From assembly GCF_900185715.1 (NCBI RefSeq), contig NZ_FYAS01000007.1, positions 62,001 to 126,000 on the forward strand: a stretch of 64,000 nucleotides of DNA. The letters are read 5' to 3'. The position numbers and the translations under genes are program-made. Within the stretch, counting starts at the first letter, position 1, and each line of letters begins with the position of its first letter. Under the pieces are notes generated by a model. The model saw only the letters and a list, made by a program, of their open reading frames with translations. It made no database searches and was not told the DNA's origin. Of the stretch, positions 53,172 through 60,375 are shown piece after piece. Source of the DNA: Allobosea sp. CS1GBMeth4 (GTDB lineage Bacteria > Pseudomonadota > Alphaproteobacteria > Rhizobiales > Beijerinckiaceae).

Positions 53172-53479
53172 GCGGCGCCGTGCCGGATGGCGCGCTCTCG
53201 GCGCCGCTGCCGGTCGGCCGCAGCGAGTTCGCTGATCGGCGCGGCTGTTCCGCCTGATCGGCCGGCCGCCGGAACCTTTCATCGGGCGGCTGGTTGAGGA
53301 TTCGTCCGTTGCCAGACTGTTTCCACCACCGGCCCGGTGTCCCCGAGGAGGCACCGGGTCGGTGGCTCTGTGCTCGCCAGGGAGCGGCCGCGTACCGATG
53401 CCGCCGGGCGAAGCCGGCCGGGGAACAGCGTTCCCGGCCATTCGTTGCCAAGGGAGGACCCCAGAACCCGGAGGCCGCG
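53172..53479. other. 308-base intergenic region with a strong hairpin
   Basis: No gene is seen. CCACCGGCCCGGTG at 53326-53339 pairs with CACCGGGTCGGTGG at 53352-53365 with one wobble, leaving a 12-base loop. No run of T follows, so an intrinsic terminator is uncertain; it may end the upstream transcript or be part of the leader of the DUF2171 gene. Confidence 0.5.
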
Positions 53480-53719: not shown

Positions 53720-53763
53720 AGCCCGTTCCGATCGTATGGATTCAATCCGATCGGATCCGGCTC
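53717..53763. repeat. TAGAG palindromic repeat, copy C
   Basis: Begins TAGAGCCCGTTCCGATC, with TAG acting as the DUF2171 stop. Inner CCGATCG (53728-53734) pairs with CGATCGG (53748-53754), outer GAGCC (53719-53723) with GGCTC (53759-53763). One arm is identical to an arm of copy B, the other to an arm of copy A. Confidence 0.75.
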
Positions 53764-53924
53764 CGGGCCGCAGCCCGGCTGGAATCGGCCGGGCCGCCTT
53801 CGCGGTACTGCGACTCCGGTCCGCGCAAGGCCGCGCAGATGCGCCACGCGCTCCCGGACGAGATCAGGGCTCCCTGGCCGGCGCACAGCGCCGGCGATGT
53901 TCCCGAACACAGGAGGACCAGACA

Positions 53925-54353
53925 ATGAAGGTATCCGATGCGATGACCCGAGGCGCCAGCATCGCCCGGCCCGACGAGACCGTGAGGGAGATCGCACGCC
54001 GCATGGCGGCCGAAGACATCGGCTTCATGCCCGTCGGCGACCACGACCGGCTGGTCGGCGCGATCACCGACCGTGACATCGCCGTCAGGGCGGTGGCGCA
54101 GGGCCGCGGCCCGGACACGCCCGTGCGCGAGATCATGACGCCGGACGTCAAGTACTGCTTCGATGACGAGGACATGGCTCATGTCGTGCAGAACATGGGC
54201 AACGTCCAGCTTCGGCGCCTGCCGGTGGTCGATCGCGACAAGCGCCTCGTCGGCGTGGTTTCGCTCGCCGACGGAGCGCTGAAGGACAGTCCCGAGGTCG
54301 TCGGCATCGCGCTGTCCGGAGTCGTCGTGCCCGGGCGGGCCGCGGCCGCCTGA
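53925..54353 (+). CDS. CBS domain protein
   Basis: A 142-residue protein with two CBS motifs making one Bateman module: VSDAMTRGASIARPDETVRE with GAITDRDIAVR, then REIMTPDVKYC with LVGVVSLADGAL. CBS pairs bind adenine nucleotides and sense energy state. AGGAGGACCAGACA is a strong ribosome binding site. Co-oriented with the small gene 17 bases downstream. Confidence 0.92.
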   Translation: MKVSDAMTRGASIARPDETVREIARRMAAEDIGFMPVGDHDRLVGAITDRDIAVRAVAQGRGPDTPVREIMTPDVKYCFDDEDMAHVVQNMGNVQLRRLPVVDRDKRLVGVVSLADGALKDSPEVVGIALSGVVVPGRAAAA

Positions 54354-54640: not shown

Positions 54641-57145
54641 TCATCCCATGCGCAAGGGGCGCGCCTGCCGGCTGAAATCGGTCCAGACCTCGTCGACCGC
54701 GCCGCCGACGAGGTCCATGGCCCTGAAGCCGTCGGGCTCCACCTCGGTGATCGCATCCCACGGGATCGGCATCGCGACCGCCGCTCCCGGACGCGCCCGG
54801 GTCGAATAGGGAACGATGGCCGTGGCGCCGCGGCCATTGCGCAGATAGTCGATGAAGATCCGCCCCTTGCGGGCCTTCTTCGACAGGGTCGCGGTAAAGC
54901 GCTTCGGTTCCGCCTGCTCCATGGCTTTGGCGAAATCCCGCGAGAACGCCTTGACCTGCGCCCAATCGGCCTTGGGCTGTAGCGGAACCACGACGTGGAA
55001 GCCCTTGCCGCCGGAAGTCTTGAGGAAGCTGGTGAAGCCGAGCTGGTCGAGGCGCTCGCGCACGGCGAGCGTCGCGCTGCGCAGCTCCTGGAGGGCGATG
55101 CCCTTGTCCGGGTCCATGTCGAAGATGATCTGGTCCGGGGTCTCGATCGCGGCCAGGGGCGCTCCCCAGGCATGGATCTCGACGGTGCCGAGCTGGACCA
55201 GCGCGGCGAGCCCGTCGAAGTCGCGGATGAACAGCAACTCCTCGCCGTCGCTGTCGCGTTGGCTCGCGATCGCCTGATGCATGCCGGGCGAGGCGTGCTT
55301 CTGGAAGAACGTCTGGTCCTGGATGCCGTCGGGCGCCCGCACCAGGCTGAGCGGCCGTTCGAGCACGAAGCGCTTCATCACCGGCCAGACATGGGCGTAG
55401 TAGTCGAGCAGGCCCTGCTTGGTCAGCCCGGTCTCCGGCCAGAGCGCCTTGCCCGGATTGCTGAGTTTCACGGTCGTCTTCGCCATCGGCGGACTGGCAC
55501 CCTTTCTGTCGGCGCTGCGTTTGCCGGCTGACCCGCTCTCCTTGCCGTCCACCGGCCACTCGCCGCGAACCTGCTTCGCCGGCTTGTCCTCGCGCAAGCC
55601 CAGGAACGAAGCGTGCCGCAACGTTCGCGACGCTGTCCAGGCCCGGAACTCGATCTCGGCGACCAGCTCCGGCTTCACCCAGACGACGCCGCGCTGGCGT
55701 GCGGCCGCGCCCGAGAAGGGCGATGTCTCCGTCGCGAGCCGGTCGAGCTGCGCCTTCAGGATCTTGGCGGATTTCTGGGTGAAGCCGGTCCCGACGCCGC
55801 CCGCGGGCTTCAGCCTGCCGTCCTCGTAATAGCCCATGACCAGCGAACGCAGGCTGCGTCCGGACGCGGTCGAGGGCACGTAGCCGGCGATGACGAACTC
55901 CTGCCGCTGGGTGCATTTCGATTTGATCCAGTCGCGGCCGCGCCCGCTGCGATAGGGGGCGTCCCGGCGCTTGGAGACGACGCCTTCCAGGCCGATGCGG
56001 CAGGCATGGCGCAGCATCGCCTCGCCCGGCTCGACGAAATGCTCGCTGAAGCGGAGTGGTCCGTCCTCCGGCACCCGCTGCAACAGCGCCTCCAGCCGCT
56101 CCTTTCGGGCGATGAGGGGATCGTCGCGCAAATCCTCCCCGTCGAGATGAATGAGATCGAAGGCGTAGAAGACGAGCTCGTCGACCTTGCCGTCGGACAG
56201 GGCGGCCTGCAGGGCCGAGAAGGACGAGCCCGTCTCCGACAGGGCGACGACCTCGCCGTCGATCAGGGCCGCCTCGCAGGGCAGCGCCGCCAGGGCGTCG
56301 ATCAGATTCCGGCCGAACCGGTCGGTCCAGTCGAGTCCGGAGCGCGTCAGCAGATTCACGGTCCCGTCGAGCACGCGCGCCTGGAGGCGGTAGCCGTCGA
56401 ACTTCACCTCGTGCAGCCAGGCTTCGCCCTCCGGCGGGCGGGCCTGCAGGGTCGCGAGGCAGGGTTCGACGAAGGCGGGCATGGCTTCCGCGGCGCCGGC
56501 GGGCTTCGACGCCCCTGCCGGCATCGCCCCGGCTGCCGGCTTGCGCCGCGCCTTGGCGGAGCCGCGCGCCTCGCCTCGGCCGACCTCCTCGATGCTCAGC
56601 CCGGACTTCACCGAGTTCGGCGCGGTCTCGAGGATGTCCTCGTCGCTGCGGGCTGCTGCATCGTCCGACTTGATCAGCAGCCAGTTGTCGCGCTTCTCGC
56701 CGCGCCGCGGCCTCAGCCTGACGAGGTGCCAGCGCCCCGCCAGCTTGTGCCCTTCCAGAGCGAAGACCAGGTGCCCCTTCTTTATCCCCGCCGCGGGATC
56801 GCCTTCCGGCAGCCATCTGCCCTCGTCCCAGACGATCACCGAACCGGCGCCGTACTGGCCGGCCGGAATCGTGCCTTCGAAGGAGCCGTAGTCGAGCGGG
56901 TGGTCCTCGACATGGACGGCGAGGCGCTTCTCCTCGGGGTCGAGGCTCGGGCCGCGGGTCACGGCCCATGACCACAGGACGCCGTTATGCTCGAGGCGAA
57001 GATCGTAGTGCAGGCGCCGGGCCGCATGCTTGTGCACCACGAAGACGCCGCCGCGCTCGCCCGCCTTCCGCCGGGCCTTGCCGCCCTGGGGTTCGCGGGT
57101 TCGGGTGAAGTCGCGCTTGGCGCGATAGACGTCGAGGCTGGACAC
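54641..57145 (-). CDS. ligD: DNA ligase D (phosphoesterase-ligase-polymerase)
   Basis: An 834-residue LigD in the Pseudomonas-like domain order. The 3'-phosphoesterase domain (about 1-170) has HKHAARRLHYDLRLEHNG. The ATP-dependent ligase (about 220-520) has catalytic K248 in EVKFDGYR. The primase-polymerase (about 555-834) begins KLSNPGKALWPETGLTKQGL and has FDMDPDKG. Start is GTG 57145, with GGAAGG upstream. LigD joins double-strand breaks with Ku, but no ku gene lies in this window. It is convergent with the frameshifted gene. Confidence 0.95.
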   Translation of the reverse strand: MSSLDVYRAKRDFTRTREPQGGKARRKAGERGGVFVVHKHAARRLHYDLRLEHNGVLWSWAVTRGPSLDPEEKRLAVHVEDHPLDYGSFEGTIPAGQYGAGSVIVWDEGRWLPEGDPAAGIKKGHLVFALEGHKLAGRWHLVRLRPRRGEKRDNWLLIKSDDAAARSDEDILETAPNSVKSGLSIEEVGRGEARGSAKARRKPAAGAMPAGASKPAGAAEAMPAFVEPCLATLQARPPEGEAWLHEVKFDGYRLQARVLDGTVNLLTRSGLDWTDRFGRNLIDALAALPCEAALIDGEVVALSETGSSFSALQAALSDGKVDELVFYAFDLIHLDGEDLRDDPLIARKERLEALLQRVPEDGPLRFSEHFVEPGEAMLRHACRIGLEGVVSKRRDAPYRSGRGRDWIKSKCTQRQEFVIAGYVPSTASGRSLRSLVMGYYEDGRLKPAGGVGTGFTQKSAKILKAQLDRLATETSPFSGAAARQRGVVWVKPELVAEIEFRAWTASRTLRHASFLGLREDKPAKQVRGEWPVDGKESGSAGKRSADRKGASPPMAKTTVKLSNPGKALWPETGLTKQGLLDYYAHVWPVMKRFVLERPLSLVRAPDGIQDQTFFQKHASPGMHQAIASQRDSDGEELLFIRDFDGLAALVQLGTVEIHAWGAPLAAIETPDQIIFDMDPDKGIALQELRSATLAVRERLDQLGFTSFLKTSGGKGFHVVVPLQPKADWAQVKAFSRDFAKAMEQAEPKRFTATLSKKARKGRIFIDYLRNGRGATAIVPYSTRARPGAAVAMPIPWDAITEVEPDGFRAMDLVGGAVDEVWTDFSRQARPLRMG

Positions 57146-57198: not shown

Positions 57199-57612
57199 CT
57201 AATTGTTCTGATGCTCCCGCACATAGCGGTGGTCGGTGTGGCGGCCGGCATAGTCGCGATCGATCTCGGAGATCAGCTTGTCCGCGTCCTCACGGTCGAC
57301 GGCGCGCAGGATCGCATCGAGCTTGGCCTCGATCCTGTCGTCTCCCTCCTTGGATTGCGGCGAGCCGACATAAAGCAGGAGGGCGAGGCCGCCGACCTGC
57401 CATAGCAGCTGCAGGAATTCCGACTGCCAGTTCTCGAGCGTGTCGCGCATCATCACGATCAGATACTCCGAGAACACGACAGGCTGCTGATGGCTCTGCT
57501 GCTCCTGGACATAGGCGAACCAGCCGAACAGCCAATGGCCGGTCAGGCTGATCAGGAAGAAGGCTGCGGTCACCCAGGCGAACCCGTATCGGGACCAGAT
57601 GCTGCGGTACAT
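57199..57612 (-). CDS. DUF6766 family membrane protein
   Basis: A 137-residue membrane protein with two hydrophobic segments (AWVTAAFFLISLTGHWLFGW, about 12-31, and LLWQVGGLALLLYVG, about 68-82) and a charged C-terminal tail rich in Asp, Arg and His (ISEIDRDYAGRHTDHRYV). The family is widespread near ligD/ku and stress genes in rhizobia; function unknown. It lies 53 bases upstream of ligD and may be in the same transcript. Confidence 0.85.
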   Translation of the reverse strand: MYRSIWSRYGFAWVTAAFFLISLTGHWLFGWFAYVQEQQSHQQPVVFSEYLIVMMRDTLENWQSEFLQLLWQVGGLALLLYVGSPQSKEGDDRIEAKLDAILRAVDREDADKLISEIDRDYAGRHTDHRYVREHQNN

Positions 57613-57645: not shown

Positions 57646-58299
57646 TCAACCGGCTCTCCCGCGGGAAGTTCCCGCCGCCGGCTCCAGCGACAAGCGTCGA
57701 ATCCGGCTCAGATCCGCGACGAAGGCCTGGAAGGCCCTTGCTCTGGCCTCGGCTTCCGGCTGGCGCAGCACGGAGGAGGGATGCACGGTGATGAAGCCGC
57801 GGCGCTCGCCGAAGTGCGTTTCCCCGCGATGTCGCGAAATCGGCAGGGCCTTGCCCGCCAGCGCCAGCGTGGCGGTGGCCCCGAGCGCGACCACGATATG
57901 CGGGTCGACGAAGGCGAGCTCCTTGTCCAGCCACCAGCGATAATGCCGGACCTCGCCGGCCGTGGGCCGCTGGTGGATGCGCCGCTTGCCGCGTTCGACG
58001 AATTTGAAGTGCTTCACGGCATTGGTGAGATAGGTCTCGGCCCGGTCGATGCCGGCTTCGGCCAGGGCGCGGTCGAGCAACCGGCCGGCCGGTCCGACGA
58101 AGGGCCGGCCCTGCTGGTCCTCCTGGTCGCCGGGCTGCTCGCCGACGAAGGCGATGGCCGCGTCTTCCGGCCCCTCTCCGAGCACGGCGCGCCCGGCTCC
58201 GGACACCAGCGGGGGCGAGGCCGCGATGGCGGCATTCAGGGCTGCGAGGCTCGCAACCTCCCGCATGGCTGGATCAGCGGCCCGAACCTCTCCCGGCAT
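57646..58299 (-). CDS. UdgX-like uracil-DNA binding protein lacking cysteines
   Basis: A 217-residue member of the uracil-DNA glycosylase superfamily. GEQPGDQED (53-61) is the motif A variant of UdgX, KRRIH (105-109) is the UdgX-specific loop whose histidine makes a covalent link to the abasic sugar, and HPSS is motif B. Unlike known UdgX and family 4 enzymes, it contains no cysteine, so the 4Fe-4S cluster cannot form: the N-terminal CxxC region reads NAAIAASPP and the later Cys position reads Tyr (VRHYRWWL). It lies downstream of the general-stress and small-protein genes. Confidence 0.85.
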   Translation of the reverse strand: MPGEVRAADPAMREVASLAALNAAIAASPPLVSGAGRAVLGEGPEDAAIAFVGEQPGDQEDQQGRPFVGPAGRLLDRALAEAGIDRAETYLTNAVKHFKFVERGKRRIHQRPTAGEVRHYRWWLDKELAFVDPHIVVALGATATLALAGKALPISRHRGETHFGERRGFITVHPSSVLRQPEAEARARAFQAFVADLSRIRRLSLEPAAGTSRGRAG

Positions 58300-59393: not shown

Positions 59394-59419
59394 AACCCCC
59401 TCGCCGGGGCGGTTGTTCC
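59394..59419 (-). promoter_or_regulatory. Possible EcfG-type general stress promoter
   Basis: Read leftward, GGAAC (59419-59415), 17 bases, then GGTT (59397-59394), compared with GGAAC-N16/17-CGTT used by the alphaproteobacterial general stress sigma factor; one base of the -10 differs. It lies 32 bases before the start codon of the general-stress gene at 59361. Confidence 0.4.
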
Positions 59420-59445: not shown

Positions 59446-60375
59446 TCACGCGGCCCGGGGTTCGGCTTCGGGACTCCAGACCTGCTTCAGCATGCGCATC
59501 AGCCGCGCGGCATCCTCGGGCGCGTGGCGTTTGTCGGTGTTGTCGAAGAACAGGAACACGTCGCGCGGCCGCGCCGCGGCGGCGCCGGCCTCATCGGCGA
59601 ATTCGCCGTCGCGCATCGGCTCTCCGCGCGTCCAGGCCTGGATCCGCGCCGCCCAGCGCCGAAGCTCGGCCTCCTCGTAGCGCGAGCGGTAGAGTTCGGC
59701 CGAGCCGTGCAGGCGGCAGTAGACGAAGTCGGCCGTCAGATCCATCAGCCTCGGCCAGTCGACCGTGTCGGCGCAGACGAGGGCGACCTCGTGCCGGCGC
59801 AGCAGGGCGATGAAGGCCGGGTCGCGGAAGCTGTCATGGCGGATCTCGATCGCATGGCGCAGAGGCCGGTTCGCATCGGTCCGAGTCCAGGCCCGCCCCT
59901 CCAGCCGCTCGTCGTGCCGCCGCGCCAGGGCGGCGGCGGCCTGCGTATCCTTCGGGAGGAGCGCGAGGAAATCCGTCATCAGGCCCGGATCGAAGCGGAA
60001 GCTCGGCGGAAATTGCCAGAGCAGCGGCCCCAGCGTGTGGCCGAGCCGCAGAACGCCCGACGCGAGGAAATTGGCGAGCGGCGTCTCGATGTCCCGGAGC
60101 CGGCGCATATGCGTGATGTAGCGCGAGCCCTTCACCGCGAAGACGAACCCCTCGGGCGCGACCTGCGCCCAGCGCGCGAAGGCTTCCGGCTTCTGCAGGC
60201 CATAGAAGGTGCCGTTGACCTCCAAAGCGGGGAACTGCCGGGTGGCGAAGGCCAGCTCGTTCTTCTGGGGCAGGCCTTCGGGATAGAAGTGGCGGCGCCA
60301 GGGCGCATAGGTCCAGCCCGACAATCCGATGCGGATCATCGCCTGCGGCCCGCCCGCCCTTCGCCGTTCGGCCAT
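59446..60375 (-). CDS. DUF72 (YecE-like) protein
   Basis: A 309-residue TIM-barrel-like DUF72 protein. Visible are RIGLSGWTYAPWRRHFYPEG at the N-terminus, FAVKGSRYITHMRRL, and the conserved C-terminal FLFFDNTDKRHAPEDA. Function unknown in any organism; often found near DNA repair or stress genes. Unlike the ligD group it has its own 110-base upstream gap. Confidence 0.9.
   Translation of the reverse strand: MAERRRAGGPQAMIRIGLSGWTYAPWRRHFYPEGLPQKNELAFATRQFPALEVNGTFYGLQKPEAFARWAQVAPEGFVFAVKGSRYITHMRRLRDIETPLANFLASGVLRLGHTLGPLLWQFPPSFRFDPGLMTDFLALLPKDTQAAAALARRHDERLEGRAWTRTDANRPLRHAIEIRHDSFRDPAFIALLRRHEVALVCADTVDWPRLMDLTADFVYCRLHGSAELYRSRYEEAELRRWAARIQAWTRGEPMRDGEFADEAGAAAARPRDVFLFFDNTDKRHAPEDAARLMRMLKQVWSPEAEPRAA

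Follow-up and report, generated by a model that had tools for sequence, protein, structure and literature searches.

UdgX and its relatives

UdgX proteins excise uracil from DNA and then become bonded to the damaged site, and are related to the family 4 uracil-DNA glycosylases (UDGs), which have four cysteine cluster ligands. Why some DNA glycosylases carry a 4Fe–4S cluster is debated, with a structural role set against one in redox chemistry or charge transfer. UdgX itself is described as a 4Fe–4S protein, with a published sequence signature consisting of R107, H109 and Q53 (PMC10359453). In the Mycobacterium smegmatis protein (MsmUdgX; PDB 6ail, 6ajp and 6iod) we find exactly three cysteines, C24, C27 and C120, which accompany the cluster (PMC10359453), and ten of its residues have been mutated: E52, Q53, D56, D59, F65, N91, K94, R107, H109 and H178 (PMC10776899). 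Replacing Cys by Ser in UDGs of families 4 and 5 lowers activity by only about 40%, and the cluster there has been proposed to act as a loop stabiliser (PMC5295032), so that a structural role was already on the table. Among DNA glycosylases, one lineage lacking its customary cluster has been mentioned, 'clusterless' MutY (PMC11078426), but MutY has an unrelated (HhH) fold and offers an analogy only.

UdgX also occurs in the rSAM–DUF4130–UdgX operon (TIGR03916, TIGR03915 and TIGR03914). Many close homologues of the protein described here, from Methylobacterium and others, are cysteine-free UdgX domains fused within this operon. The present udgX gene, in contrast, stands alone, and no match to TIGR03915 or TIGR03916 was found in its source genome, where the uracil glycosylases of these kinds comprise one UdgX and one family 4 UDG.

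A stand-alone UdgX without cysteine

The gene lies on the minus strand at 57646..58299 of the window (the whole 64,000-nucleotide stretch of Allobosea sp. CS1GBMeth4 DNA that was analysed) and encodes a protein of 217 amino acids. The initial annotation had called this a UdgX, and the assignment is borne out by the curated UdgX model TIGR03914 (265.8 bits against a cut-off of 189.95), by a PF03167 domain match and by the closest PDB sequence matches, all MsmUdgX entries. The three motifs it had listed are likewise present in the translation, all encoded on the minus strand: motif A, GEQPGDQED (residues 53–61, 58117..58143), the R-loop KRRIH (residues 105–109, 57973..57987), whose cross-linking histidine is residue 109 just as in M. 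smegmatis UdgX, and motif B, HPSSVLR (residues 173–179, 57763..57783). The protein thus has the R-loop with R107 and H109, the GEQPG motif containing the glutamine equivalent to Q53, and a sequence of the HPS(S/A)(L/V)(L/V)R type. It scores below the cut-off of the family 4 model TIGR00758 (115.8 versus 125.3 bits), and GEQPG and the R-loop separate it from family 4 UDGs, in which motif A reads GE(A/G)PG, the R-loop is missing, Asn occupies the position of His109 and the cluster has four cysteine ligands.

What the protein lacks is cysteine: there is none among its 217 residues, as originally reported, and of the UdgX cluster ligands (three cysteines, presumably plus a histidine) the histidine position alone is kept. 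As the published signature rests on R107, H109 and Q53, with the cluster a feature of the members characterised so far, we refer to the protein as a cluster-less variant of UdgX rather than as a standard member.

Could the cysteines be concealed by a misread start, a frameshift or decay into a pseudogene? The codons in frame immediately 5' of the start read TGA-GCC-ATG, and with a stop two codons upstream of the ATG a longer N-terminus is impossible in this frame. Homologues are just as free of cysteine and also lack a CxxC motif, dN/dS within the clade is well below 1 and GC3 of the ORF is 0.83. A misread start hiding a CxxC, one of the refutations envisaged at the outset, is therefore not what we find; misread start and frameshift are both rejected, and the chance that cysteines are concealed in any of these ways is negligible.

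An AlphaFold2 model of the protein has a mean pLDDT of 92.9, with values of 91–94 in the blocks spanning residues 21–40, which include the loop replacing the CxxC. Its top Foldseek match is MsmUdgX 6ajp (TM 0.80/0.84, rmsd 2.0), the structure alignment giving about 49% identity, and both fold and motif layout resemble those of the family 4 enzyme UdgA from Thermus thermophilus (1ui0; TM 0.77/0.86). AlphaFold2 is also confident for cluster proteins modelled without their cofactor, so the high pLDDT is weak evidence and does not exclude a cofactor.

Remodelling of the cluster-ligand sites

Alignment to a characterised UdgX, proposed earlier as a check, places all three MsmUdgX cysteines at sites where the 217-residue protein has none. 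C24 falls opposite a gap and C27 opposite P29, within a remodelled loop, ASPPLVSG (residues 27–34, 58198..58221, minus strand), that is shorter than the MsmUdgX counterpart around C24, whilst C120 is replaced by Tyr120 (57940..57942, minus strand). This exchange is widespread: position 120 is Tyr in 36 and Glu in four of 40 cysteine-free representatives, and Cys in all 85 representatives with cysteines. The positions that diverge most between the two groups cluster at the ligand sites, with eight of the top 15 lying within seven residues of them (p = 0.008).

The third ligand cysteine of family 4 UDGs (in the motif KCRPP) aligns with the UdgX sequence VKHFKF, that is, with MsmUdgX His95, and for this reason we infer that His95 is the fourth UdgX ligand. 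Its equivalent here, His97 (58009..58011, minus strand), is kept. Among representatives with cysteines the residue is His in 85 of 85; among the 40 cysteine-free representatives it is His in 33, Arg in six and Tyr in one.

In a rival reading, His97 and His119, together with an acidic residue of the loop, form a different metal centre that has taken the cluster's place. His97 and His119 occur together in 28 of the 40 cysteine-free representatives, and Glu or Asp is frequent at Msm position 27. The combination is not conserved, however, since His97 is Arg or Tyr in seven of the 40, and the protein studied here has Pro at that loop position and no acidic residue anywhere in the loop. We have therefore rejected a replacement metal site, which we consider very unlikely.

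The family 4 UDG of the source genome (L002:1198-2085) has Trp in place of the third cluster cysteine in its KCRPP motif. Trp replaces this ligand in all 20 alphaproteobacterial family 4 UDGs sampled (L203–L222), and Phe replaces the first cysteine in most. With two of four ligands gone, these enzymes may also be cluster-less, a parallel to the loss in UdgX within the same class.

Active site and selection

The active site tells a different story from the ligand sites. Across the 40 cysteine-free representatives, the ten positions mutagenised in MsmUdgX are all kept, with the exception of a single D56N (one of 400 cells in the alignment). E54, Q55, P56, G57 and D61 of motif A are present in 40 of 40; R107 and H109 are invariant in the cysteine-free representatives (40/40) and in those with cysteines (85/85), as are H173, P174 and R179 of motif B in both groups. 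Between close pairs of the cysteine-free clade dN/dS is 0.05–0.30, and selection on the clade is purifying. A conserved active site, divergence at the ligand sites and low dN/dS are, as read from sequence, the marks of a working enzyme with a rebuilt cluster site.

These data also bear on the idea that the protein folds without a cluster but has lost excision or cross-linking, surviving as a mere binder of uracil-DNA or abasic sites. Such an outcome would fit what is seen in family 4 and 5 UDGs, where a loop is anchored by the cluster and activity falls on loss of the cluster, but plain binding would not require the residues whose mutation abolishes or impairs MsmUdgX activity, and these are all conserved. 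We regard the binder as unlikely, and retention of covalent trapping as likely.

Distribution and phylogeny

To the single protein can be added a clade. UdgX domains with R107 and H109 were gathered from two sources, named genome contigs and genomes sampled from the family, class and phylum of the source organism. The resulting set is uneven, since the named contigs had been picked for their closeness to the query and stand-alone copies were sought deliberately. It comprises 257 distinct domains, of which 190 have all three cysteines, 67 have none and none is intermediate. All 20 loci from genomes outside the class, obtained in one sampling batch, have the three cysteines. A tree computed after removal of the ligand columns places 55 of 59 cysteine-free rows in one alphaproteobacterial branch (SH-aLRT 95) that includes the 217-residue protein; the other four, from Parasphingorhabdus (two), Novosphingobium and Belnapia, lie outside it. 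These results confirm the absence of cysteine and extend it from one protein to a clade, so that an isolated mutation can be rejected.

How often the cysteines were lost is less clear-cut. A quick tree requires three changes, yet an AU test does not reject a single cysteine-free clade (p 0.756; the tree in which the clade was held together was better by 22 log units), so that one to three losses are possible. Several independent losses are not a necessary reading of the data.

Closest to the protein in the tree are the stand-alone cysteine-free UdgX of L049, L113 and L114, of which two belong to its own genus. Within this genus (g1) most sampled genomes encode a three-cysteine UdgX in a long ORF (L004, L005, L007, L009, L011, L012, L014–L020 and L022), the exceptions being G000, G148 and G296 (L113, L114 and the present gene), with stand-alone cysteine-free forms; this mix suggests replacement or horizontal transfer. 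Two further loci are atypical. In L126 (genome G076) UdgX is split over two reading frames and is likely a frameshifted copy, and L266 encodes a three-cysteine UdgX with the R-loop TAKLH and the motif GEQPGL, lacking R107 and D56, in which cross-linking is possibly altered.

A UdgX that has probably dispensed with its cluster

Taking these lines of evidence together, we give a probability of about 0.8 to the reading that the protein is a UdgX of an alphaproteobacterial branch that has lost the cluster, rebuilt its site and retained the covalent-trap chemistry. The 4Fe–4S cluster would have been lost as one unit in this branch, the CxxC loop being shortened to a turn of the P-L-V-x-G type and the C-terminal ligand cysteine becoming Tyr. 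Packing can substitute for a structural cluster, and here Tyr120 and the shortened P-L-V-x-G loop stand out as candidates for taking over its structural work. No cluster would be bound, and uracil excision and formation of the His109 bond to the abasic site would persist. Of the two possibilities in the initial annotation, that the cluster is dispensable here appears well supported, given the family score, the invariant active site, purifying selection and the existence of an entire cysteine-free clade.

The other possibility, that the protein was reshaped to work without iron, as would be useful under stress, finds no such support as a form of iron saving. This is a claim about cause, and is compatible with a cluster-less UdgX. 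Radical-SAM proteins carry a 4Fe–4S cluster, and most fused cysteine-free homologues still adjoin the radical-SAM gene (TIGR03916); where flanks are long it is present at 26 of 41 cysteine-free loci and at 35 of 55 loci with cysteines (Fisher p = 1). Loss of the cysteines is thus not associated with loss of the radical-SAM partner. Moreover, genomes G010, G015 and G051 each hold a cluster-type fused UdgX (L026, L024 and L029, respectively) and a cysteine-free stand-alone one (L125, L122 and L124). With the partner kept and both types of UdgX in one genome, general iron avoidance is no explanation.

What favours selection under iron limitation or oxidative stress is the gene neighbourhood. The next gene downstream of udgX encodes a DUF6766 protein (57199..57612, minus strand; PF20554) and is followed by that for an NHEJ-type DNA ligase D (54641..57145, minus strand; TIGR02776 and others); upstream are genes for a YflT-domain protein and a DUF72 protein. 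Patterns resembling EcfG-type promoters (GGAAC-N-GTT) are in excess in the window (eight versus 2.6 expected; two of 100 shuffles reach as many), among them sites at 57648–57672 and 59394–59419 on the minus strand and 53271–53295 and 53422–53446 on the plus strand. One lies upstream of the YflT-domain gene and one upstream of the DUF6766 gene; directly upstream of udgX, however, none was found. The neighbours LigD and YflT and the promoter-like sites make it plausible that the neighbourhood has a role in stress; that iron limitation or oxidative stress selected the cysteine-free form we think unlikely. The four EcfG-like sites listed above lie near the DUF6766–LigD genes, the YflT-domain gene and, at 53736–54353, an ORF of CBS-like appearance. 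The DUF72 gene (59446–60375) has counterparts near stand-alone cysteine-free UdgX in L049, L113, L122 and L123, adjoining it in L122 and L123, and a functional link between DUF72 and UdgX is possible.

Significance

No description of a cysteine-free UdgX was found in the literature searched, which did not take in the main structure papers, so that priority is uncertain. A cysteine-free clade with an intact active site amounts to a natural loss-of-cluster experiment, and some of its genomes supply a cluster-type paralogue for matched comparison. UdgX is already in use as a probe for uracil in DNA and in base editors, and production might be simpler for a form into which no cluster has to be loaded. 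We think it reasonably probable, if less so than the main reading above, that this is a naturally cluster-free, fully active and self-cross-linking UdgX lineage in which a protein-only core has replaced the 4Fe–4S cluster, in some genomes beside a cluster-type paralogue. If so, no catalytic or redox role that the cluster may play in UdgX would be indispensable.
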